Source: a virus
Length of the DNA stretch: 47,471 nt
Direction: 5' to 3' (one strand)
Virus record (IMG/VR): IMGVR_UViG_3300025135_000685
Coordinates: 1-47,471 of that record
Below the pieces are notes generated by a model, which searched no databases, was not told where the DNA came from, and saw only the letters and a list, made by a program, of their open reading frames with translations. Of this stretch, positions 6,764-47,127 are shown one piece after another. Position 1 is the stretch's first letter. The number at the start of each line of letters is the position of its first letter. The position numbers and the translations under genes were made by a program.

Positions 6764-7222
6764 TTATCCTTTGATTTCTCGGTCCATATCACGACTAATG
6801 TCCCTTTCTTTTATTGACTGTTTTTTATCGTAATTTTTCTTACCTCTGGCGAGAGCTATTTTCATTTTCAAGACACCCTTTTCGTTTGTAAACAATTTTA
6901 TTGGCACAATTGTAATTCCTCTCACCTTTAGCTTATCATCAAATTTCTTGATTTGCTTTTTTGTTAATAGCAATTTTCTCTTTCTATAGGGGTCGTGATT
7001 ACCTCTTCCAGACTCTTTATACTCAGCAACGTGCATTCCCGTTATGAACACTTCTCCATCTTGGATAAAGCAGTGGGCCTCTCCAATACTAACATCTCCA
7101 TTTCGTATAGATTTAACCTCAGAACCGAAGAGAGATATTCCAGCAACCTCTTCTTCTAAAAACTCATAATTATATGAAGCTTTCCTGTTTTTTACATTAA
7201 CTGTGTTATCTGATTTTCCCAT
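6764..7222 (-). CDS. smpB: SsrA-binding protein SmpB
   Basis: 152 residues, full SmpB length. The N-terminus has the KASYNYEFLEEEVAGISLFG strand pattern and EVKSIR. HDPYRKRKLLL and the ALARGKKNYDKK segment match the tmRNA-binding face, and IKERDISRDMDREIKG is the helical basic tail that enters the empty mRNA channel. The usual DKR is DKK here. SmpB carries tmRNA into stalled ribosomes; this window also encodes a tmRNA (30175-30470), RNase R and ClpP. A phage-type promoter ends five bases before the ATG, so the transcript is probably leaderless. Confidence 0.97.
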   Translation of the reverse strand: MGKSDNTVNVKNRKASYNYEFLEEEVAGISLFGSEVKSIRNGDVSIGEAHCFIQDGEVFITGMHVAEYKESGRGNHDPYRKRKLLLTKKQIKKFDDKLKVRGITIVPIKLFTNEKGVLKMKIALARGKKNYDKKQSIKERDISRDMDREIKG

Positions 7223-14160: not shown

Positions 14161-14733
14161 TTATTCAAGAATTTCGTCAACAACCCCAAGTTTAAGGGCT
14201 TCTTCTGCAGACATATACCAATCCTGCTTTTTCTCGTACACCTCTGTTAGTCTTTTCTGACCAATATTTGTTTTCTCAAGAGTTATTTGCTCAAGCAATT
14301 TTTGAAGTCTCTTTGTTTCTTCGACATCTTCTTCCATATCCTTAAGTTTTCCCCAGGCCACAGAACTAACTTGATGATAAAGTGGAGTTGATAACTTATG
14401 GGCAAATCTCTTGTGTCCAGAAATAAGCATCATAAAACCACAGCTCATTGCAGCTCCAGTAACTATTGTATGAATAGGGGTTGTACTTCTCTCCATTACA
14501 CTCAGTAATCCAAAACATTGATACACATATCCGCCATAAGAATCAATGTATATCTTGATTGGTTTTGGATGATATTCGATGTCGTGAAGTGCATAATGTC
14601 TTTTAAGCTCTTCATCGTGTTCAGAAATTTTTATTATCTCCTGTGTAAGTGTAGATATAGACTCTTGGTCTACTTGCTTTGTGAAGAAAAGATTTCTCTT
14701 CATCGGGGCATCTAAAATTGTTTTCTCTGCCAT
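14161..14733 (-). CDS. clpP: ATP-dependent Clp protease proteolytic subunit ClpP
   Basis: 190 residues, ClpP length. The catalytic triad fits: Ser97 in TGAAMSCGF, His120 in TPLYHQ, and Asp171 in KKQDWYMSAEEA, with the GVVDEIL end typical of the family. YIDSYGGYVY is the oxyanion-side strand. ClpP degrades proteins fed by an unfoldase; no ClpX or ClpA is in this window, so it may use the host's or one encoded elsewhere. It fits with tmRNA and SmpB as the disposal arm of ribosome rescue. It faces the helicase gene across a divergent 121-base promoter region. Confidence 0.95.
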   Translation of the reverse strand: MAEKTILDAPMKRNLFFTKQVDQESISTLTQEIIKISEHDEELKRHYALHDIEYHPKPIKIYIDSYGGYVYQCFGLLSVMERSTTPIHTIVTGAAMSCGFMMLISGHKRFAHKLSTPLYHQVSSVAWGKLKDMEEDVEETKRLQKLLEQITLEKTNIGQKRLTEVYEKKQDWYMSAEEALKLGVVDEILE

Positions 14734-20509: not shown

Positions 20510-22462
20510 TTATAATACGATTTTAAAATCCACTTGTTTTCTTGTCATGTTGACTTTAGCAACTTGAATTGTTACCTCATCACCAAGTCTATAACTTTCT
20601 CCGTTGTTAAAGTTATTCACACAGAAGTTCTCTTGGTCAATATGTAAATTTCCACTCTCAAGAGTCTCTTTACTAATGAGTCCATCACAGCCATTTTCAA
20701 TAATCTCTACAAAGATACCAAAATCTGTGACACTTGATATAATTCCAAGAAAAACCTCTCCAACCTTATCCTTCAAGTATTCGCACTGCTTATACTTGAT
20801 TGATTCCCTCTGGGCTTTAGCAGCTCTATTTTCCATATCACTACAATGCTCACACTGAGAACCAAGTTTTGAGACATCTCCATTCTTACCCTTCAAATAT
20901 TCCCACAATAACCTGTGAGCAATTACATCTGGGTATCTTCTGATTGGACTTGTAAAGTGGCTGTAGTGCTTAAATCCAAGACCATAATGACCAATCACCT
21001 GAGTAGAATAAACAGCTTTCGACATTGAACGAATTGCAAGATTTGAAATCATCGCTTCCTCACCGCTTCCAACAGCTTGTTTCAACATTTCATTAAGCGA
21101 TGCTTTTGTTTGCTCAATACTTCCTGAAGTGTTGAAGGAATATCCAAATTGCTTAACAAATGCACTCAACTCCTGAAGTTTATCTTCACTCGGCAAGTCA
21201 TGCGTTCTGTAAACATACGGCTTTGTAAGTCCATATGAATAGGTTGCAACATATCTATTCGCAAGAAGCATATATTCTTCAATCAATTGATGGGCTTCCG
21301 CAGATTCGTGAAAGAATACATCAACTGGAACTCCAGCTTCATCAAGAACAAAACTTGGTTCTCTTCTATTAAAAGTAATGGCACCTTCCTTAAATCTTTG
21401 CGCCCTTAACTTCTTTGCAATATCATTTAATACTGGTATGCACTCAAAAGATTCAACATTACCACTAACACCCTGCATTGCAGTTATCTTAATTCCACCA
21501 ACCGCTGCCTCAATTACTTCTTGTGCTTGCTCATACGAAAATCTCGTGTTAGAATTAATAACAGTCTTCTTGAAGCTATGCTTAAGAACATCTCCGTTTT
21601 CTGAAATCTCAAAGATGACTGAGAACGTAAGTTTATCTTCATTTGGACGCAAGCTACATATTCCATTAGAAAGTCTCTCTGGAAGCATTGGAATGCATCT
21701 ATCAACAAGATATACAGAAGTTGCCCTCTCGTATGCCTCCTTGTCAAGAGCGCTTCCTGGTCGAATATAATGAGTCACATCGGCAATGTGAACACCAATT
21801 TCATAGTTTCCATTTTTAAGTCTTTGAAATGATATAGCATCATCAAAGTCTTTTGCGCTCTCAGGGTCAATTGTGATGGTTAATACATCACGCATATCTC
21901 TTCTCTTAAGAATTTCGCTTTCTGGTATTTCTACTGGAATTGCATTTGCCTCAGCTTCAACTTCTGGAGGGAAAGTGTAGTCAATTCCATGCTTAAACAT
22001 GATTGACCCCATTTCGGTCTCGTGAGCCTCAGCTTTACCGATTACTTTAACAATTATTCCTGTTGGATTCTTATCTTTTTTGTTCCATCGCTGCAATCTC
22101 ACAACCACAATTTCTCCGTCTTTTGCTCCACCAAGATTTTCCACTGGAACATAGAAATCAACTGGAGTTTTACTGTCAGAAGTTCTCACAAAAGCATATC
22201 TCTTTTCTTCATTGATGTCTATTACACCAGAGAAATCAAGAGTTTTTCTTGTTACAACACCAATTACCTTAGCTTGTTCTCCACTGCCCTTTCCACTTTT
22301 ATCCTGAATTATCTCAGCACTAACTAAGTCTCCATCGAGGGCTTGTCCAAGATTTTTCTTGTTAACAAACAAGTCTTTAAACTCTTTATTTTTTGCAACA
22401 AGGTGAGCGTGGCCATTTCTTGATAACTCAACTACTCCCTCTACCTGTTTCTTTTCTTTCAT
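20510..22462 (-). CDS. rnr: RNase R / RNase II family exoribonuclease
   Basis: 650 residues: cold-shock/OB domains in the first 170 residues, the RNB catalytic domain with DPESAKDFDDAIS holding the catalytic Asp residues, and an S1 domain near residue 560 (VTDFGIFVEII). The N-terminal helix-turn-helix and basic tail of the longer bacterial enzymes are missing. RNase R degrades structured RNA 3'-5' and, in E. coli, works with SmpB-tmRNA to remove non-stop mRNA. Phage-encoded SmpB and tmRNA in this window make the same partnership likely here. Confidence 0.94.
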   Translation of the reverse strand: MKEKKQVEGVVELSRNGHAHLVAKNKEFKDLFVNKKNLGQALDGDLVSAEIIQDKSGKGSGEQAKVIGVVTRKTLDFSGVIDINEEKRYAFVRTSDSKTPVDFYVPVENLGGAKDGEIVVVRLQRWNKKDKNPTGIIVKVIGKAEAHETEMGSIMFKHGIDYTFPPEVEAEANAIPVEIPESEILKRRDMRDVLTITIDPESAKDFDDAISFQRLKNGNYEIGVHIADVTHYIRPGSALDKEAYERATSVYLVDRCIPMLPERLSNGICSLRPNEDKLTFSVIFEISENGDVLKHSFKKTVINSNTRFSYEQAQEVIEAAVGGIKITAMQGVSGNVESFECIPVLNDIAKKLRAQRFKEGAITFNRREPSFVLDEAGVPVDVFFHESAEAHQLIEEYMLLANRYVATYSYGLTKPYVYRTHDLPSEDKLQELSAFVKQFGYSFNTSGSIEQTKASLNEMLKQAVGSGEEAMISNLAIRSMSKAVYSTQVIGHYGLGFKHYSHFTSPIRRYPDVIAHRLLWEYLKGKNGDVSKLGSQCEHCSDMENRAAKAQRESIKYKQCEYLKDKVGEVFLGIISSVTDFGIFVEIIENGCDGLISKETLESGNLHIDQENFCVNNFNNGESYRLGDEVTIQVAKVNMTRKQVDFKIVL

Positions 22463-30123: not shown

Positions 30124-30139
30124 CATTTTTATTTTTGTT

Positions 30140-30168
30140 GTAACATTTATGTTTTTTTTTCGTATATT
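30140..30168 (+). promoter_or_regulatory. Phage-type promoter of the tmRNA gene
   Basis: GTAACA, 17-base spacer ending in CG, TATATT. A start 6-7 bases downstream would fall at about 30174-30175, just before the first paired strand of the acceptor half at 30180. Confidence 0.75.
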
Positions 30169-30174
30169 TACAAT

Positions 30175-30470
30175 ATGAGCATTGATTTGCTTGACAATAA
30201 ATTGTCGTAATGAAACACAGGAGTTCGAATCTCCTCATCTCCACAAAGTCAATTTTTTTTGACAAAACGAAAACTGGGGATGAATGGCATTAGACTTCAT
30301 TAAATCGGTGATTTGTTTTAGAATCATAGCTTAGTCATTATAAATGGCAAAAATACAAAAAGCTTAGCAGAGGCAGCGATGTCTTATGCGGCAATGAAAG
30401 AAGTTGTTTCTACTCCAGTAGTAGAATTAGCTTAACAGAAATCCCCAGTGAAGTACAGTAACTGGGGATT
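30175..30470 (+). ncRNA. ssrA: Transfer-messenger RNA, circularly permuted (acceptor half first)
   Basis: The 3' (acceptor) half comes first: a T arm with stem AGGAG/CTCCT around TTCGAAT (30219-30235) and CATCTCC (30236-30242). After about 33 bases comes the 5' half: GGGGATG (30276-30282), then a tmRNA-like D region containing TAGAC. The two acceptor strands pair over seven bases (one G-U). A second helix joins the halves: TTCATT plus AAATCGGTG (30296-30310) pairs with CATTGATTT (30180-30188) and AATGAA (30209-30214), 15 pairs with a hairpin bulged out. A tag frame ends STPVVELA then TAA at 30433-30435. CCA is not fully encoded. The resume codon is not certain. Confidence 0.82.
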
Positions 30471-30475
30471 TTTTT
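30440..30475 (+). terminator. Terminator after the tmRNA gene
   Basis: Ten-pair stem (AATCCCCAGT with ACTGGGGATT), 11-base loop, then a run of T. It starts five bases after the tag stop codon, so it may also act as the 3' hairpin of the coding half. Confidence 0.88.
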
Positions 30476-30992
30476 ATTTATAATAATTTGAAATTATTTT
30501 ACATAACTTTATTGTTTCTTCATGTGAAATATTATTTTTCATTAAATTTATATTTCTACTGACAAATTGGATATTACCTTTTATGTAACCTTTATTACTA
30601 TCAATCCTATCTAAAGAAGCTGTATAAAAAGAGTTGCTATTTTTCTTATAATTCCATGCTTCAAGAATAATCCCAGTATAAACACACTTGCCGTTTTGAG
30701 ATTCCCAAACACTCTTTAATTCTTCAAGTGTTAATGTGCATATTTTATTTCTTTTTTTAGCCTGTCTTAAATGAAATCTAAATGGTGTAAACTCATCTGT
30801 CAAAGAGCCTGTTTTTAAAAATTCAATATTTCCCCTTTTATCTTCAGGTATATTTTTAACATTTCCTTTGCCAGAACAACTCCTGGAACAATAAGTCTTT
30901 CTGCCTATTTTTTCATTTCTTTTTTGTTCCCTTTTTTCTCTTTCAAAAGTTTTTTTACAAACCTCACATGTTAATTCTACTTTATTTCCCAT
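30474..30992 (-). CDS. HNH endonuclease with zinc ribbon
   Basis: 172 residues. An N-terminal C-x2-C (CEVC) and YCSRSC form a zinc ribbon. The nuclease part has GKCVYTG, then ASLDRIDSNKGYIKGNIQFVS, a phage-type HNH pattern. Its 3' end touches the tmRNA terminator. It lies on the opposite strand to its neighbours, as free-standing homing endonucleases often do. Confidence 0.85.
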   Translation of the reverse strand: MGNKVELTCEVCKKTFEREKREQKRNEKIGRKTYCSRSCSGKGNVKNIPEDKRGNIEFLKTGSLTDEFTPFRFHLRQAKKRNKICTLTLEELKSVWESQNGKCVYTGIILEAWNYKKNSNSFYTASLDRIDSNKGYIKGNIQFVSRNINLMKNNISHEETIKLCKIISNYYK

Positions 30993-31153: not shown

Positions 31154-32062
31154 ATGAGACAATTAAAAATTTCTAAGCAAATCACGAATCGTGAATCACT
31201 ATCATTCGGAAAATACCTTACAGAGGTTGCAAGCAAGAGTGACATAATTACTTCAGAGGAGGAATTGGAGTTAACAAGAAGAATTAAGAATGGTGATATT
31301 GATGCTCGGAACAAATTGTGTGAAGCAAACTTGAGATTTGTAATTAGTGTAGCCAAACAATATGGAAGTCAATTAGAATCGCTTCCAGACCTTGTTAACG
31401 AAGGAAACATTGGATTAATTAAAGCTGCTGAGAAATTCGATGAGACAAGGGGGTTTAGGTTTATATCCTATGCTGTATGGTGGATTAGACAGTCAATTAT
31501 GCAGTACCTTGCTGAGAATGGTAGAACAATTAGATTGCCACTCAATAAAATTGGAATGGTAAATAAAGTTAAGAGTGCTAAATCAGAATTGGAACAGGTG
31601 TACATGAGAGAGCCAACTATTGATGAAATATCAGAATACTTGATGGTTCAGGAGGAGGAAAAAGGCTCAAAAGGTGAACCAGGAAAATATCAAGAAGAAA
31701 AAATTAGTGACATCATACACACTTCTCTAAGCGTGTCCTCACTTGATGCTCCGCTTTCAGGAGAGGTTGATTCTGGTAGTATAATGGATACTATCGAGGG
31801 TGAAATTGAAAATGACATAAAAAAAACACTAAACAACAAAGACCTTCAGATAGAAATAAAAAGAGTAATTTCTACCCTTAAAAGTAGAGAGCAACAAGTC
31901 CTAACTCTATACTATGGATTATTTGATAATCCCGCAATTAGTCTTGAAGAAATTGGTCAAAAATTTGACTTAACAAGAGAGAGAGTTCGTCAAATTAAAG
32001 AAAAAGGGCTAAGGAAATTAAAATTTAAAGCACAAAGAACCGTGTTAAAAGAATATAGATAA
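31154..32062 (+). CDS. Sigma-70 family sigma factor, RpoD-like (Bacteroidota type)
   Basis: 302 residues with the full domain set: MRQLKISKQITNRES opening, region 1.2/2.1 (LCEANLRFVISVAKQY), 2.3-2.4 (YAVWWIRQSIMQYLAENGRT), region 3 and 4.2 (EEIGQKFDLTRERVRQI). The opening and length match the primary sigma of Bacteroidota rather than phage gp55-type factors, so it probably came from a host. It may direct RNA polymerase to the GNAACA-N17-TATAAT promoters, one of which stands before its own gene. Confidence 0.95.
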   Translation: MRQLKISKQITNRESLSFGKYLTEVASKSDIITSEEELELTRRIKNGDIDARNKLCEANLRFVISVAKQYGSQLESLPDLVNEGNIGLIKAAEKFDETRGFRFISYAVWWIRQSIMQYLAENGRTIRLPLNKIGMVNKVKSAKSELEQVYMREPTIDEISEYLMVQEEEKGSKGEPGKYQEEKISDIIHTSLSVSSLDAPLSGEVDSGSIMDTIEGEIENDIKKTLNNKDLQIEIKRVISTLKSREQQVLTLYYGLFDNPAISLEEIGQKFDLTRERVRQIKEKGLRKLKFKAQRTVLKEYR

Positions 32063-32835: not shown

Positions 32836-35800
32836 CTATTGTGATAATTCAACACCATAGTTGACTCCACCTACTCTATAATTAAGAGTAATTGTTCCTG
32901 TTGCTCCAGAATGAAACCATACATCATTGTTTGATGGGGCCACTGGATTAGAGCCTGTGTAAGGCGATATTGAAAAGAATTCTGTAGCAGTAACAGTTGT
33001 TCCTTGAATTCCTGCATTTGCTTCCCAATTACCATTAGCGTCAATGAGCCAGGTTGCATCGACACCAGTTGTTACACCGTTATCTATGTAAAGACCACCG
33101 CCAGTAGCTGATATTTCAGTTCCTCCTGAGTTAAGCGTTATAGTGTTATCAACAACATAAAGGTCCTGAGTGTTAATTGTTGTTGCAGTACCAAGAACTT
33201 CAACATTTCCTGTTATGTAAACATCTCCAGCAACTGTAACCCCCGTTCCATCATAAGTTAATGGAGAATCTGTAAGAGATGTTGTACCGTTCCACATCGC
33301 AATTGTGTTTGCAGTTCCTGAACCAGCCAATCCAGAACCAACAGCAGCAAATATAGAATAAAGGTCAGTTCCACCTGACTGAATCGCTCCAGTGAAGTTT
33401 GCTCCAGCAAGTGTAGATGAACCTGAAGTTGTTAAGCTGCTTATTGAAGGTGATGATACAAGGCTTACGATTGGCTCGTTGGCTGTTCCACCAGTCACAA
33501 TGTTTGTTCCAGCTTGAACCCTTGTCACATCTCCTTGTGCATCAAGATTAACCCAAGACGAACCATTGTAGCCCTGGAAGTTTGAACTATTCCAACGAAC
33601 CATACCCGCTGCTGCTATAGCTGAAACATGTAAATTACCTACTTGAATTTGATTAGAGAAAGTAATATTTGTACCACTTGTCATATCTAATGATACAGAA
33701 TCTGAACCTAAATTATTAAATAATTGAAGGGATGTGCCATCCATAAAGAACTGATTAATATAACCAGCTTCAGATTGTAATAAATAAGTTTCAGTTGCAT
33801 TAAGTAATAACTCTTGTTTCGCTGTACCTACTTGAAATATTCCAAGCTTACCCCCTGTTTTACCTATTCTAAGATTATATAAACCAGCACCTCCTATTTC
33901 AGTATTTCCAGTAAGTGTTCCACCAAGGGTTATGTTATTTCCTGTCTTTGTAAGACCATTAGATGCTGTTGTTGCAGCTGGTGCTGAAGTTAAAAATATA
34001 TTGTAAAGGTCAGTTCCTGCAGAGTATATTACTCCTCCGTTCTCAGCAAGTCGAGCATTCATGGTCATGAATGTGCTGTTGAATGAGTTTGTCATCCCTG
34101 AACCGCCAGCTATTGCTGACAGGTTTCCAGAGACTGTATTCCCCGTTCCAGCAAGGACAGATGAACCCTGGCCTGAAGCTAAGTTGCTCCTTCCACCCAG
34201 AACAGACGCATAAGCAGCTGTTGCTGAATTTAAGCGGCCTCCACCAATAAAAGACCTTGTTCCTGATGCTATATTACTCTGACCACCAACAACGGATGAA
34301 TAAGTGGTTGTCGCTGAATTTAAGCGGCCACCACCAATAAAAGAGCGGTTTGCAGATGTGCTAATAATATTATTTTGTCCACCAACAACTGATGACCAAG
34401 TGCCGTTGATAACGTTGTATCCACCACCACCAATAAATGAATATCCAGAATTAGCCTTATTATCCTTACCACCAACAACAATAGAGAAAAAACCAGCGGC
34501 AACGTTGCTATAATTTCCATTTGTAGAACCTCCTCCGCCAATGAAAGATAAATTACCACTTGCAACATTCGAACCACCAGCTACAATTGCAGAGTTATAT
34601 CCAGAAACTATGTTTTCACTACCTCCACCAATAAATGAGCGTTGTCCTGATGCTCTGTTATTTTGACCACCTACAATTGTTGAATATGTTGTTGTTGCTG
34701 AGTTTTGTAAACCACCACCAACAAATGAAAGCTGTCCAGTTGCCTGATTAGCGGAGCCACCAACAACTAATGAATGTATTGTTGTTGCTGAATTTAAAGT
34801 ACCACCACCAATAAATGAACGAAATCCTAATGCTAAATTAGTAACACCACCACCAACGAATGAACCTTGACCACCTGCTCTATGACTATAACCACCTCCA
34901 ATGAATGAACCACCACCATATGCTAAATTGCTATAACCTCCAACAACCACAGAAGAATAAGCTGTTGCTGCGTTATTTTGACCTCCACCAACAAATGAAA
35001 GCTGTCCAATTGCTGAGTTTAAATAACCACCACCAACAAATGAGCGAAATCCTGATGCTAAATTTTCACGACCACCACCAACAAATGAGTTTTCTCCAGT
35101 TGCTACGTTTTGACGACCACCACCAACAAATGAGCGAAATCCTGATGCTAAATTTTCACGACCACCACCAACAAATGAGTTTTCTCCAGTTGCTACGTTT
35201 TGACGACCAGCACCAACAAATGAGTAGTGTCCTGATACTGAGTTTTTATAACCACCAACAATAACTGATGAGTAGCCTCCTGATGCGGTATTACCTCCAC
35301 CAGCACCAATGAATGAATAACTTTCTGCTGAATTCCCATAACCACCAACAACAACTGCTGAGCGGCCTTCTGGTGTTTGGTTATATTGACCACCACCAAT
35401 GAATGAATAATATGTTGTCGCTGAGTTTTGTCGTCCACCACCAACAAAAGAGAAGTATCCTGATGCTATATTTGCTTGTCCTCCAACTACTGATGAATAT
35501 AAAGCTGATGCAATATTTGAGAGTCCACCACCAACAAATGAGCGGTCTCCTGATGCTGTATTTAATTGACCACCAACTACTGCTGAATATTGTCCTGATG
35601 CTAAATTATAGCGACCTGCACCAACGAAAGAATCAATATTTGTTGCTGAATTATTGTAGCCACCTCCAATAAATGAGGCATCTCCTGATGCTAAATTATA
35701 GCGACCACTAACTATTCCTGCATAACTTGTTGTCGCTGAGTTTTGAACACCGCCACCAACAAATGAGCGAAGTCCTGATGCAATATTTAAGACTCCACCG

Positions 35801-36336
35801 CCAACAAAAGAGGAAACATTTATTGCTGAGTTTCCAAATCCACCCCCAACAAATGAACCACCACCTACAGATGCTATATTGTTTTGACCACCTCCAACAA
35901 AGGAATCGTATCCTGATGCTAAATTTCTATAACCTCCAACAACTGATGAATATTGTGTTGTAGCTGAGTTTAATTTACCTCCAATAGCAGATGATTGAAT
36001 TCCAGTCGCCATATTTCCATAACCTCCAGCAAAAGAAAAATCTCCACTCGCCAGGTTCCCAGACCCATTATTTGCAATGATTGATTCCGAGCCAGTTGAG
36101 GCGCTCCAGAGGTCACCAGATGTCGGAAGACTTGTGCCTGCCAAGAAAATATCATATAGGTCTGTTGAGCCAGAAAAAATAGTACCCCCAGAAAATGTGG
36201 AGGCACTTAATGATGTGATATTATCTGAGCTAATTACATTAGACCCGTCATATTTTATTATTTGTCCAGATACCAGTCCTGCAAAGTCATGGTCTGATGT
36301 TCCTGTAAAGCTGTGTAATTTTAAGTGCGCACCCAT
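32836..36336 (-). CDS. Large repeat fibre/adhesin (YadA-head-like beta-roll)
   Basis: 1166 residues, one of the largest proteins here. After a short N-terminal region come about 45 tandem 15-residue repeats of the type SFVGGG-x-N-x-ASG, spanning roughly residues 90-750. This Gly/Ala/Ser pattern resembles the left-handed beta-roll of YadA-type adhesin heads. The motif TDLYxIF occurs near the N-terminus and twice later, and the C-terminal part has phage-fibre features (SNNDVWFHSGATG). It is probably a host-contact tail or capsid fibre. Its position between small units, and the lack of a chaperone domain, leave assembly open. Confidence 0.85.
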   Translation of the reverse strand: MGAHLKLHSFTGTSDHDFAGLVSGQIIKYDGSNVISSDNITSLSASTFSGGTIFSGSTDLYDIFLAGTSLPTSGDLWSASTGSESIIANNGSGNLASGDFSFAGGYGNMATGIQSSAIGGKLNSATTQYSSVVGGYRNLASGYDSFVGGGQNNIASVGGGSFVGGGFGNSAINVSSFVGGGVLNIASGLRSFVGGGVQNSATTSYAGIVSGRYNLASGDASFIGGGYNNSATNIDSFVGAGRYNLASGQYSAVVGGQLNTASGDRSFVGGGLSNIASALYSSVVGGQANIASGYFSFVGGGRQNSATTYYSFIGGGQYNQTPEGRSAVVVGGYGNSAESYSFIGAGGGNTASGGYSSVIVGGYKNSVSGHYSFVGAGRQNVATGENSFVGGGRENLASGFRSFVGGGRQNVATGENSFVGGGRENLASGFRSFVGGGYLNSAIGQLSFVGGGQNNAATAYSSVVVGGYSNLAYGGGSFIGGGYSHRAGGQGSFVGGGVTNLALGFRSFIGGGTLNSATTIHSLVVGGSANQATGQLSFVGGGLQNSATTTYSTIVGGQNNRASGQRSFIGGGSENIVSGYNSAIVAGGSNVASGNLSFIGGGGSTNGNYSNVAAGFFSIVVGGKDNKANSGYSFIGGGGYNVINGTWSSVVGGQNNIISTSANRSFIGGGRLNSATTTYSSVVGGQSNIASGTRSFIGGGRLNSATAAYASVLGGRSNLASGQGSSVLAGTGNTVSGNLSAIAGGSGMTNSFNSTFMTMNARLAENGGVIYSAGTDLYNIFLTSAPAATTASNGLTKTGNNITLGGTLTGNTEIGGAGLYNLRIGKTGGKLGIFQVGTAKQELLLNATETYLLQSEAGYINQFFMDGTSLQLFNNLGSDSVSLDMTSGTNITFSNQIQVGNLHVSAIAAAGMVRWNSSNFQGYNGSSWVNLDAQGDVTRVQAGTNIVTGGTANEPIVSLVSSPSISSLTTSGSSTLAGANFTGAIQSGGTDLYSIFAAVGSGLAGSGTANTIAMWNGTTSLTDSPLTYDGTGVTVAGDVYITGNVEVLGTATTINTQDLYVVDNTITLNSGGTEISATGGGLYIDNGVTTGVDATWLIDANGNWEANAGIQGTTVTATEFFSISPYTGSNPVAPSNNDVWFHSGATGTITLNYRVGGVNYGVELSQ
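35041..35220 (-). repeat. 90-bp tandem duplication inside the fibre gene
   Basis: 35041-35130 and 35131-35220 differ at one base only (C versus G near 35120/35210). Each copy encodes two 15-residue repeats. The near identity, against more diverged neighbours, shows a recent slippage or recombination event. Confidence 0.9.
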
Positions 36337-40545: not shown

Positions 40546-40962
40546 TTAATTTCCAGCAGTTTTCTTTGCTCCATCTTGAATTATCCCAATCAACAATTCA
40601 TTATACAAAATGAGTTCATCATTCTTCTTTTGTAATTTTTTATTAATATCAGCAAGAGAATCAATAGCAAGCTCCCTATTCTTTAACACCCTCTCTCTGC
40701 TATCTGTAAATTCAAATATAGATACGAGAGTGTCTCCAACTTCATGCTTATAGTTGGTGTAATACCATACAGCGCCAGATTCAGACTTAAGCCTAACTCT
40801 ATATTCATAGTTGTTCTGAAAACAACTGCTACATTCTTTGTTCAACTCATTTTTCTTAATGAGCTCAACTACAAGGTTGTTTTCTATCTCTGCTCTGCCT
40901 TCATCTGTGCAAGATGCAAGTGATAGAAGTCCTATGACTGCGAATAATTTAAACTGTTTCAT
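40546..40962 (-). CDS. Lipoprotein with coiled-coil tail
   Basis: 138 residues. Signal peptide with lipobox LLSLASC; the mature part has a CSSC pair, a beta-rich region and a helical coiled-coil tail (about 90-130). It overlaps the end of the Thg1 gene by 14 bases, so the two are coexpressed. Function unknown. Confidence 0.78.
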   Translation of the reverse strand: MKQFKLFAVIGLLSLASCTDEGRAEIENNLVVELIKKNELNKECSSCFQNNYEYRVRLKSESGAVWYYTNYKHEVGDTLVSIFEFTDSRERVLKNRELAIDSLADINKKLQKKNDELILYNELLIGIIQDGAKKTAGN

Positions 40963-41773
40963 TTTCTTTTTTTAAGATGGGCTCCTCATCAAAGAAGATA
41001 ACCTCGGTTTTGTTTTCTATTTTATTAAAAATCGGGTACTCTACCACTTTAATCACACTTCCCTCAATAACCAAATCTGGATTCTTGCGTGCATTATGCA
41101 TTGGATGCAAAGAGGCAAGTTCTTCTGTAGTGAATGGTCTTGATGTCTTGATTCGCTTCACATAAGTTCCACGCTTGTACTTAGCTAATAGGTCATTCCA
41201 GTTGACACCTTTTTCAAGCATCATTTTATCTTGCATCTGACTTCCATTTAAGTTTTCAAGCGAATTGTGTGAGAATAAACTTTGAGCAAGCATGGATATG
41301 CTATTTTTTGTGGCATCATTTTCTCTCCACAACAATTGAACGCATGCATCGTGAAGTGTTGGGGTTTGATAAATTCTACAATCGAACACCGCAGTTTTAT
41401 CATGCTCTGGAAGGAGTTCTTTTCTTCTTTCATTAAAGAAGTTTACACACTTTGCAGTTAATTTAGAAAGAATCTTTTGCTTTTTACCATCATTATATAT
41501 GGCACTCTTTCTGTCGGAAGAATATAGGATTAGAGTAATCTCATCACTCTGTGTATATCCAACAATAGCATTTGTCTCCTTAACCAATTCCTGAACAGTC
41601 TCGGTCATCAATTGATTTAATTTCTCATCAAAAGGCTTATTAAGACCAATAGTCCACTTGCTGAAATTGTTCCCATCAAGTCTGATGATAACTGGTAATG
41701 TTGGAATCATGACATCTGGTGAGAAATTTTTCTCAAGCCATTTGCACCAATCACCCATTGTTTCAAAATCCAT
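40949..41773 (-). CDS. tRNA-His guanylyltransferase family (Thg1-like) 3'-5' polymerase
   Basis: 274 residues. RLDGNNFSKWT (catalytic Asp33), GLNKPFD and TQSDEITLILY (Asp77-Glu78) are the Thg1 palm motifs, and MPH-like FFNERRKELL matches the helix after it. Thg1 adds G-1 to tRNA-His in eukaryotes; bacterial Thg1-like proteins repair 5'-truncated tRNAs using 3'-5' polymerisation. Here it may mend tRNA damaged by host nucleases. It has its own phage-type promoter and lies near RNA-centred genes (RNA ligase, tmRNA, RNase R). Confidence 0.88.
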   Translation of the reverse strand: MDFETMGDWCKWLEKNFSPDVMIPTLPVIIRLDGNNFSKWTIGLNKPFDEKLNQLMTETVQELVKETNAIVGYTQSDEITLILYSSDRKSAIYNDGKKQKILSKLTAKCVNFFNERRKELLPEHDKTAVFDCRIYQTPTLHDACVQLLWRENDATKNSISMLAQSLFSHNSLENLNGSQMQDKMMLEKGVNWNDLLAKYKRGTYVKRIKTSRPFTTEELASLHPMHNARKNPDLVIEGSVIKVVEYPIFNKIENKTEVIFFDEEPILKKENETV

Positions 41774-44247: not shown

Positions 44248-44487
44248 ATGAGTCATATTAATTCCAGTTTTCTTAGAACTGATGTATTGCCTAAGTATAA
44301 TTGTAGCAATTGCGACCACTTTTGTGCAAAAAAAGAGATAGTTGATACCAAAACACGTGGTTCTTATGCTATCGAATGCGCAAATGTTGTACACCCACTT
44401 GAAGATTGTATTCTTCGTGGATTTGAAGCTCACTCTGAACAACCTGGATTTTCACAAACACTAAACAAAAAAGATGAATCAAAATAA
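44248..44487 (+). CDS. Small Cys-rich protein
   Basis: 79 residues from ATG 44248, placed just downstream of the promoter; an upstream in-frame ATG at 44158 lies before the promoter and is rejected. Five Cys (CSNCDHFC, ECANV, EDC) suggest a metal site. It overlaps the ClpB N-gene by 14 bases, so the two are cotranslated and may interact. Confidence 0.74.
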   Translation: MSHINSSFLRTDVLPKYNCSNCDHFCAKKEIVDTKTRGSYAIECANVVHPLEDCILRGFEAHSEQPGFSQTLNKKDESK

Positions 44488-45967
44488 TCCCCAAACAAAT
44501 TTAGATAAGTTTGCAATAAACTTAACAGCTAAGGCAAAAGAAGGAAAGCTTGACCCAATCATTGGTCGAGATGATGAGATAAGAAGAATACTTCAAATCT
44601 TATCAAGGAGGACTAAGAATAACCCTGTAATTGTGGGTGAGTCTGGAGTTGGTAAGACGGCAATAGTTGAGGGTATTGCACATAGAATCATTCGTGGAGA
44701 TGTTCCAGAAAATCTTAAGGAAATTGTTATCTACTCACTTGATATGGGTGCGTTAATTGCTGGAGCTCAATACAAGGGTGAATTCGAAGATAGACTCAAG
44801 GGGGTAATCAAAGAAGTCACCGCTTCAAACGGACAAATTGTACTTTTCATTGATGAGATTCATATTCTTGTTGGAGCTGGTGGTGGCGGTGGTGCCATGG
44901 ATGCGGCAAACTTATTGAAACCAGCCTTAGCCAGAGGAGAAATGAGAACCATCGGAGCAACAACTCTTGATGAGTATCAAAAGTATTTTGAGAGCGATAA
45001 GGCTCTTGAGCGAAGATTTCAAAGAGTATTTGTCGATGAACCTGGAATTGAGGAGACAATTGCAATATTAAGAGGTATTAAGGATAAGTTTGAGGCACAT
45101 CACAGAGTTGTCATTAAAGATGATGCATTAATTGCATCCGCTGAGTTATCTAATAGATACATCACAGACCGACATCTTCCAGACAAGGCAATAGACCTCA
45201 TGGACGAGGCTTGCTCTAAACTTAGAATGGAACTAAACTCTGTTCCAGAAGCTGTTGATGACATGAATAGAAAAATCCTTCAACTTGAGATTGAGAGACA
45301 AGCAATGAAGAAGGAGAAGAACAACACTCGCCTTACTGAGGTTGAGGCTGAAATCAAAGTATTAAAAGATGAAGCTGATGTAATCAATGCTAAGTGGAAT
45401 GAGGAGAAAGCTATCATAGAAGGAGCAAGCAAAGCCAAGGCCCTTGTTGAGAAGCTGAAATTTAAACTCGAAGATATTAAGCGAAAAGACTCAAAGGTCG
45501 ATGAAGACTGGAAGATGATTTATGAGCTTGACAAGGTTGAGGTTCCTAAAGCGGAGGAAGAGGTAAAGAATGCCTTCACGAAACTTAAGGAGCTTGAATC
45601 ATCTGGGAGTAGAATGATGCAAGAAGAAGTTCATGCAAATGACATTGCTGAAGTCGTTGCAAAGATGACTGGAATTCCTGTATCAAAGATGACTCAAGGA
45701 GAGCGTGACAAACTTCTCGTTCTTGAAGAGGAGCTTCACTCAAGAATTATTGGTCAAAGCGCAGCTGTAACAGCTGTATCAGATGCAATCAGAATTAATC
45801 GCTCTGGACTTGGGAATCAAGGGAAACCAATTGGCTCCTTTCTTTTCCTTGGGACCACTGGAGTTGGAAAGTGTTTTTTGGGAGAAACAAAAATAAAAAT
45901 TAGAAACAAATCAAATGGATTTATTGAAGAAATAAGTATTGACGAATTTAAGAAAAGATTAAAATGA
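44474..45967 (+). CDS. clpB: ClpB disaggregase N-terminal part with N-intein
   Basis: 497 residues. Residues 1-466 are ClpB without the usual N-domain: NBD1 with Walker A GESGVGKT (55-62) and Walker B VLFIDEIH, the coiled-coil middle domain (about 250-390), and NBD2 up to the start of its Walker A (GTTGVGK). Residues 467-497 are an N-intein beginning with Cys and ending in a stop codon. ClpB is a hexameric AAA+ machine that pulls proteins out of aggregates. The C-terminal part is the next gene, overlapping by ATGA. Activity should need protein splicing in trans. Confidence 0.93.
45872..45964 (+). other. N-intein fragment (31 codons)
   Basis: Starts with Cys at the splice site inside the NBD2 Walker A (GVGK before, TELGK after the C-intein). 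[10 protein letters not shown] matches intein block A. The very short length resembles atypical split inteins whose N-part is about 25-30 residues. Confidence 0.88.
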
Positions 45968-46326
45968 AAAAATTTACACAGACAACTTCTATATCAGAAT
46001 ATGAAGTATTTACTGATACTGGATGGGGGGATATTAAAAGTCTACATCAAACAATACCATACAATGTTTATGAACTTAAAACACAGTCTGGATTATCACT
46101 AAAATGTGCAGACAATCATATTGTCATTGATTGTGATATGAATGAGAAGTTTGTGAAGGATTTGACTGATAACGATTTCCTAATTATTAGTGATGAAGAA
46201 AATGGTTATCTATTTGATAGAGTTAAGTCTGTTACTGACCTGGGTTATGAAGAAGTAATGTACGACCTTGAACTTATTGAAGGTTCAAATAGAAGATATT
46301 TCACAAATGGAATTCTTTCTCACAAT
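45964..46326 (+). other. C-intein fragment (121 codons)
   Basis: Starts with ATG overlapping the stop of the N gene. It has a block B-like stretch (YELKTQSG, then DNHIVI), a block F-like YDLELIEGS and the C-terminal NGILSHN, followed by Thr as the first extein residue. The usual TxxH Thr is Ala here. No endonuclease domain is present. Confidence 0.88.
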
Positions 46327-47127
46327 ACAGAGTTAGGAAAGGCGCTTGCTGAATACTTATTCGATGACGAGAGCATGGTTACAAGAATTGATATGAGCGA
46401 GTTCCAAGAGGCTCATTCTTCTTCAAGACTTGTTGGAGCACCTCCAGGATATGTCGGATATGATGAAGGTGGTCAGCTCACTGAAGCTGTAAGAAGAAAG
46501 CCTTACAGCGTTATACTTCTTGATGAAATTGAGAAAGCTCACCCAAATGTATTCAACACACTCCTTCAAGTTCTTGATGATGGAAGACTTACTGACAATA
46601 AGGGTCGTCTTGCAAATTTTAAAAATACCATTATCATTATGACATCCAACATTGGTTCTGAAGCCATCATGTCTGGAATACAAAGGGTGGAGGCCCTAAA
46701 AGAGAGTGGGAAGGATGCTGGAGAATTTGGTGATGCCAAGCAGATAATGAAGAAGGCAGAAGAAATTGCGCTTAACATGCTTAAGCTAAAGGTTACACCA
46801 GAGTTCTTGAACAGAATTGACAAGACGATTGTATTTGATTACCTCAACAAGGAAAATATAAGAGAAATTGTTGAACTTCAATTTAAGGGCATTCAAAAAA
46901 CACTCTTAAAAAATGGTATTAAACTCACAGCTAATGAAGAAGCTTTCTCTAAGATGACTGATATGAGCTATGAGCCAGAATATGGAGCAAGGCCAGTAAA
47001 GAGAATGATTCATGATGAAATATTAAATAGACTCTCTAAGGAGATACTATCAAGCCAGGTTGCTCAGAACTCAGAGATTGAAATAAGAGTCAAAGATGAC
47101 CAATTTGATTTTGTAAATATTAAATAA
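45964..47127 (+). CDS. clpB: C-intein plus ClpB C-terminal part
   Basis: 387 residues: 121 of C-intein, then 266 of ClpB starting TELGKALAEYL, the end of NBD2 Walker A. Walker B is VILLDEIEKAHP, followed by sensor and C-domain segments (FLNRIDK, EYGARPVKRMI). After splicing, the joined Walker A would read GTTGVGKTELGK and the two extein parts would make a 732-residue ClpB. A terminator follows. Confidence 0.93.
   Translation: MKKFTQTTSISEYEVFTDTGWGDIKSLHQTIPYNVYELKTQSGLSLKCADNHIVIDCDMNEKFVKDLTDNDFLIISDEENGYLFDRVKSVTDLGYEEVMYDLELIEGSNRRYFTNGILSHNTELGKALAEYLFDDESMVTRIDMSEFQEAHSSSRLVGAPPGYVGYDEGGQLTEAVRRKPYSVILLDEIEKAHPNVFNTLLQVLDDGRLTDNKGRLANFKNTIIIMTSNIGSEAIMSGIQRVEALKESGKDAGEFGDAKQIMKKAEEIALNMLKLKVTPEFLNRIDKTIVFDYLNKENIREIVELQFKGIQKTLLKNGIKLTANEEAFSKMTDMSYEPEYGARPVKRMIHDEILNRLSKEILSSQVAQNSEIEIRVKDDQFDFVNIK

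Follow-up and report, generated by a model that had tools for sequence, protein, structure and literature searches.

The 47,471-bp IMG/VR virus record IMGVR_UViG_3300025135_000685 (the window; all coordinates are in its numbering, and positions were checked base by base) carries at positions 30175–30475 on the plus strand what its sequence identifies as a circularly permuted gene for transfer-messenger RNA (tmRNA), i.e., a phage ssrA in which the acceptor half precedes the coding half. Earlier descriptions of permuted tmRNA concern three bacterial groups and mitochondria. We read the present gene as a functional, phage-encoded permuted ssrA whose two-piece tmRNA would act together with the tmRNA-binding protein SmpB in ribosome rescue, and assign this reading a probability of about 0.88.

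As judged from the sequences, comparison with relatives is decisive for the identification of the gene. SmpB-encoding viral contigs were scanned with the Rfam model RF04321 (tmRNA_permuted), relatives of the neighbouring sigma-factor gene were gathered separately, and a homologous permuted tmRNA was found on three other phage contigs (G016, L311 and G049), each time upstream of the same sigma-factor gene. Most of the window is syntenic with G016 (140,950 bp), whose tmRNA lies at the corresponding position, with protein identities of 73% for SmpB, 74% for RNase R, 79% for RecD2 and 66% for the sigma factor. In L311 an HNH gene and the sigma gene flank the tmRNA, and in G049, a more distant relative (SmpB 43%, RNase R 44% identity), the tmRNA lies directly upstream of the sigma gene. 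The order of acceptor half, spacer and coding half is the same in all three relatives, in agreement with the first-pass annotation, which had placed an acceptor half upstream of the coding half of a permuted tmRNA. Acceptor-stem pairs 5 and 6 differ between the window and G049 by compensatory changes, from A-U/U-A to U-A/C-G (GGGGATG/CATCTCC to GGGGTCG/CGACTCC); G049 retains the G3-U70 wobble. The spacer measures 32 nucleotides in the window, 18 in L311, 83 in G016 and 31 in G049, a freely varying length that is accounted for if this is the sequence expected to be removed. Furthermore, G016, L311 and G049 each have a hairpin of their own, with a T run, after the tag and in the terminator position of the window. 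Judged from these relatives, the tmRNA gene is retained by selection. Sigma-gene neighbours more distant than L311 and G016 yielded no tmRNA by ARAGORN or by a stem scan, and a T-loop pattern search found G049 again and no others.

Table 1 Features of the permuted tmRNA locus, its neighbours and selected other genes in the window.
Feature	Position	Strand	Remarks
Promoter, TTGTAACAT + TATATTTA	30138–30146 and 30163–30170 (element 30138–30170)	+	Conserved in relatives
Acceptor piece	30175–30243	+	5' end inferred; 3' end is discriminator A30243; CCA not encoded
Helix 2, 3' strand TAATGAA	30208–30214	+	Pairs with 30296–30302
T arm	30219–30235	+	AGGAG-TTCGAAT-CTCCT: 5-bp stem, 7-nucleotide loop TTCGAAT
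Acceptor stem, 3' strand CATCTCC	30236–30242	+	Seven pairs with 30276–30282, G3-U70 wobble included
Spacer between halves	30244–30275	+	32 nucleotides; removal by tRNA-processing enzymes expected
Acceptor stem, 5' strand GGGGATG	30276–30282	+	RNase P site expected 5' of G30276
D-loop region AATGGCATTAGAC	30283–30295	+	T-rich, Bacteroidota-type
Helix 2, 5' strand TTCATTA	30296–30302	+	Pairs with 30208–30214
Tag frame GKNTKSLAEAAMSYAAMKEVVSTPVVELA	30346–30435	+	Resume codon GGC, 29 codons, ends TAA
Intrinsic terminator	30439–30475	+	Strong hairpin and T run, -17.4 kcal/mol
HNH endonuclease	30474–30992	-	Beside tmRNA; position varies among relatives
Sigma-70 factor	31154–32062	+	Downstream neighbour of tmRNA in all four phages
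SmpB, tmRNA-binding protein	6764–7222	-	PF01668, E 2.3e-51; NCBIfam smpB equivalog above cut-off
RNase R	20510–22462	-	TIGR02063, 680 bits (cut-off 598); PF00773
ClpP-like peptidase	14161–14733	-	PF00574, E 1.4e-25; below every NCBIfam ClpP cut-off
ClpB-like ATPase	44474–47127	+	Two overlapping frames

Along the plus strand the locus reads promoter, acceptor half, spacer, coding half, resume codon, tag, stop and terminator (Table 1). All features of a tRNA-like domain are present (7-bp acceptor stem, T arm and the alanine identity pair G3-U70), the resume codon is preceded by the upstream motif ATAAAT, and nothing but the terminator follows the tag. The promoter, which the first-pass annotation had put right before the first helix strand, gains credibility from its conservation: L311 and G016 retain TTGTAACAT...TCGTATATTTA, G049 retains GTATATTTACAA from the -7 part, and the words kept among relatives are TTGTAACAT and CGTATATTTA; a generic promoter scan alone performs at chance level. 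The seven-pair acceptor stem and the terminator after the tag stop proposed in the same annotation are likewise borne out, with compensatory changes in the former and counterparts in relatives of the latter. The second helix had been described there as having 15 pairs: its core of seven sound pairs is safe, and the extensions beyond the core are weaker, interrupted and unsupported in G016 and G049, so that a long extension may not be a general feature.

Detection by program leads to the same assignment. ARAGORN calls a permuted tmRNA (tmRNA*) with the tag GKNTKSLAEAAMSYAAMKEVVSTPVVELA in the window and makes no call in any of 300 dinucleotide-shuffled versions of the complete window. Setting permuted against standard covariance models, a check that had been proposed at first pass, favours the permuted form: RF04321 is the best-scoring family at the locus (39 bits, E 2.2e-6), the beta_tmRNA model reaches 26.7 bits (E 1.5e-6), and the standard model RF00023 gives only a 16.6-bit match on the window. 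A nucleotide search of phage records with the tmRNA as query returned only short tRNA-like matches.

The tags of the four phages, i.e., GKNTKSLAEAAMSYAAMKEVVSTPVVELA in the window, DKNTIKSLAAAAMANASMKETSADIIEFAAA in G016, DKTLTKSLALAAIAESERAEAVVLAPVAIAA in L311 and DNTINTIAATFTPASAVAQPVALAA in G049, are mutually alignable and 25–31 residues long, with 29 in the window. Bacteroidota tags such as GENNYALAA have 9 residues; the commonest tmRNA tag length is 10 (PMC11915505). The tag frame is the only frame that is open in all four phages. Between the window and G016, the nonsynonymous distance (dN) is 0.30 and the synonymous distance (dS) is saturated, with 9, 5 and 16 differences at the three codon positions (28 codons, a rough estimate), and by this comparison the tag evolves as a protein. 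A reading of the tag in the +1 frame, AKIQKA followed by a stop, was rejected, since the resume-codon spacing favours GGC and frame 0 alone is open in all relatives.

The window encodes both SmpB and RNase R, as do G016 and G049. RNase R participates in trans-translation in other bacteria. These two phage proteins and the long conserved tag had been absent from the first reading of the window. Processing, charging, tagging and benefit can be proposed by analogy with the known behaviour of permuted tmRNAs (PMC11915505). A single transcript would run from about 30175 to the terminator at 30475; cleavage by RNase P on the 5' side of G30276 and by 3'-processing enzymes behind A30243 would release the spacer. 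The products would be an acceptor RNA (approximately 30175–30243, with CCA added) and a coding RNA (approximately 30276–30470), held together by the acceptor stem and helix 2. After alanylation via G3-U70 and binding by the phage or the host SmpB, the tmRNA would enter ribosomes stalled on broken mRNA, switch them to GGC, add the 29-residue tag and release them, and the phage RNase R could clear the broken mRNA. The expected benefit is that ribosomes would stay usable when host defences or phage nucleases cut mRNA.

A Bacteroidota phage had been proposed at first pass, and this attribution is supported by the SmpB neighbours, by the D-loop and resume codon, and by two further phages with permuted tmRNA, a prophage and the Maribacter phage Panino. 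In a search of 84,980 species genomes, 79 of the best 80 bacterial SmpB matches come from records named Bacteroidota, the exception being an Aminicenantes metagenome-assembled genome, and of 34 genomes taken from among these, 29 have a standard tmRNA above cut-off. A permuted tmRNA occurs in only 1 of 395 genomes sampled across Bacteroidota (L310, tag GKVIQMNNAPVRLAA); it lies in a prophage of G333, amid genes for a phage-type DNA polymerase, primase, helicase, RIIA and integrase, and the chromosome around it also encodes the host's standard tmRNA, with the tag GEDNYALAA. A further draw of genomes from the order of G333 contained no other permuted tmRNA. The annotated tmRNA of Panino (PP540027, 27557–27889; L356) is permuted according to ARAGORN. 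Bacteroidota phages do carry permuted tmRNAs, and host chromosomes, as sampled, do not; the one-piece form earlier ascribed to Bacteroidota tmRNAs is borne out by the sampled chromosomes. A Bacteroidota host is seen directly for the G333 prophage and for Panino, but these are different phages from that of the window, which probably infects Bacteroidota as judged from its SmpB and tmRNA sequence states. The window contains 59 copies of the Bacteroidota promoter motif TAnnTTTG where 64 are expected, so there is no enrichment, and the motif was not used as host evidence.

Several observations weigh against a functional permuted ssrA in a Bacteroidota phage. The window scores below the RF04321 gathering cut-off of 47 bits, and no Rfam match in the window reaches its gathering score; any pseudoknot near the tag is putative, and the helix-2 extension fills most of the space before the resume codon in the window and L311; the whole helix-2 duplex, equalled by 0 of 300 shuffles in the window and 2 of 300 in L311, is not better than shuffles in G016 (189/300) or G049 (44/300); the window tag ends in VELA, not in the usual LAA or AAA, with AIAA, FAAA and ALAA in the relatives; and the host is inferred from sequence. 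A low covariance score would be in line with a chance tRNA-like fold, an unrelated RNA or a tRNA remnant. The RF04321 threshold is, however, a search cut-off and not a defining property of permuted tmRNA, relatives score on either side of it (G016 38.3 bits, G049 67.2 bits), and with order, stems, tag and synteny conserved four ways and no call among the shuffles, a chance fold is refuted in practice. The VELA end could instead mark the loss of the degron in a tmRNA that has decayed or become a decoy, a tmRNA-like remnant which would bind SmpB or titrate host factors but add no tag; the tmRNA of phage DS6A, reported to lack a coding part and to inhibit the endogenous tmRNA, is a precedent (PMC11915505). 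We regard this as improbable, given that comparison with G016 shows purifying selection on a tag frame that has stayed open, that promoter, terminator, acceptor stem, T arm and resume context are intact, and that the tags of the relatives end in ordinary AA; a hydrophobic LAA-type degron end, which the window tag does not have, is not a defining feature of tmRNA.

With a functional permuted ssrA preferred, the origin of its permutation can be considered. The proteobacterial-type permuted tmRNAs found here mostly have the D-loop TTCGAC and the resume codon GCA, whereas Bacteroidota one-piece tmRNAs (n = 27) have TTTGAC, ATTGAC or TTAGAC (a T-rich GAC motif in nearly all) and GGC in 24 of 27. 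The permuted genes of Bacteroidota phages mostly share the Bacteroidota states, i.e., TTAGAC or TTTGAC and a Gly or Asp resume codon, and the prophage gene L310 is identical to the one-piece gene of its host at 45 of 49 compared positions of the tRNA-like domain. These agreements suggest a separate permutation, although adaptation to Bacteroidota ribosomes could produce the same states. We propose tentatively, at somewhat less than even odds, that permutation of a Bacteroidota-type one-piece tmRNA took place in Bacteroidota phages as an event separate from those of alphaproteobacteria, betaproteobacteria and cyanobacteria, and that these phages may run a partly self-sufficient rescue system (tmRNA, SmpB and RNase R) with long, fast-evolving tags, the changed ends of which would alter the fate of tagged proteins in infection. 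It is also possible, at about the same odds, that the window gene was acquired from one of these three groups, or from their phages, instead of being permuted independently: permuted genes are known to come from these groups and to be carried by phages (PMC9004378, PMC11915505). A tree of the approximately 49-nucleotide tRNA-like domain does not resolve or separate the origins, and in simple distance the window gene lies 0.30 from the proteobacterial-type permuted set and 0.39 from Bacteroidota one-piece genes, a slight advantage for the former. The D-loop and resume-codon states and the agreement of L310 with its host gene argue against acquisition and for an independent permutation.

A full tagging-and-degradation kit (SmpB, RNase R, ClpP and a Clp ATPase) was considered for the window and is weakened by the ATPase being ClpB-like and by the ClpP-like protein being sub-cut-off and unmatched in the syntenic G016. 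The ClpP-like peptidase could have a role in tag-directed proteolysis or in capsid maturation; neither it nor the ClpB-like protein is assignable to the former. In the ClpB-like AAA+ protein (44474–45967 and 45964–47127, plus strand) an intein interrupts the second-domain Walker A motif (GVGK^T), with about 31 residues on the first of the two overlapping frames and the remainder on the second, and is either atypically split or broken; the homologue in G016 is uninterrupted. Other genes encode a Thg1-like guanylyltransferase (40949–41773, minus strand), related to proteins of jumbo phages, and an RNA ligase of phage type (17814–18881, minus strand). The window has no tRNA gene, and the two enzymes suggest that RNA repair accompanies ribosome rescue. 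A related HNH gene lies near the tmRNA in three of the phages, downstream and antisense in the window, upstream on the same strand in L311 and G016, and was not seen in G049; it looks mobile and is perhaps attracted to the tmRNA locus. A 1166-residue tail-fibre-like protein (32836–36336, minus strand) has many SFVGGG...N.AS.. repeats and no Pfam or PHROG match.

Further tmRNAs were encountered in other phages. A set of 36 viral contigs (L044–L078) has permuted tmRNAs, mostly of one family, with a Gly resume codon and the tag GEQVEMAMAA or near variants; these may be Bacteroidota phages too, because one of them (L053) weakly matches Flavobacterium phage immuto at the DNA level. Hits of a Gly-resume pattern were mostly AAATGG inside this tag, not a resume codon, and were set aside. 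Another permuted family occurs in tRNA-rich large phages (L260 in G025 and L023 in G010), with the tags GNFNNNTNEMVMLAAA and GNFNRNTEQVMYAAA; G025 has SmpB. Cellulophaga phages phi38:1 (KC821614, 26805–27164, minus strand; L357) and Calle (MT732432, 12951–13310; L359) have a common one-piece tmRNA whose 30-residue tag, GNNTNAVNAQIEANMEAVNAILNLEVAVGV, has no AA end.

A permuted lineage in phages of a phylum with one-piece tmRNAs would mean that permutation can arise, or persist, in viruses without the host. Host and phage pairs would have the same function in two gene architectures within one cell, and Panino with Maribacter is a cultured pair suited to studying two-piece processing. Phage SmpB and long tags open the question of why phages carry ribosome rescue and what the tagged proteins are for.

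Compared with the permuted tmRNAs of alphaproteobacteria, betaproteobacteria and cyanobacteria (RF04321; RF01849–51), the window gene has the same order of acceptor, spacer and coding parts, a 7-bp stem with G3-U70, a T arm, helix 2 and a tag after the 5' half, but its lineage differs in the Bacteroidota-type D-loop TTAGAC, the Gly or Asp resume codon, the 25–31-residue tags, the presence of only a terminator after the tag, and the Bacteroidota-phage context. Phage-encoded permuted tmRNAs are known from phage Melnitz and other marine phages, and in a 2021 survey that included 133 unique phage tmRNA structures, 53 had the two-piece form, nearly all of marine or aquatic origin (PMC9004378). The Melnitz gene groups with alphaproteobacterial ssrA and was reported with a glutamine riboswitch (PMC9004378), whereas the window has no Rfam riboswitch match and has SmpB. 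The combination of tmRNA and SmpB is known from huge phages (PMC7162821); these and the Lak Prevotella phages have, like the window, a tmRNA with SmpB of the same type (45–51% identical), but their tmRNAs score as standard one-piece RNAs (RF00023, 48–65 bits) and do not score as permuted. Panino (PP540027), an isolate and a Bacteroidota phage, likewise has a permuted tmRNA, but has the tag GKVMNVSFAPTVRQFA and its gene inside a tRNA cluster; the paper describing it does not use the word 'permuted' (PMC11590407). Standard Bacteroidota tmRNAs and those of phi38:1 and Calle share the D-loop and Gly resume codon with the window but are one-piece. No description of permuted tmRNA in Bacteroidota or their phages was found in the open-access literature, supplements excluded. 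Permuted tmRNAs of marine phages and tmRNA with SmpB in huge phages are thus known, and what is new is the Bacteroidota-phage lineage, with its long tags and Bacteroidota-type sequence states.
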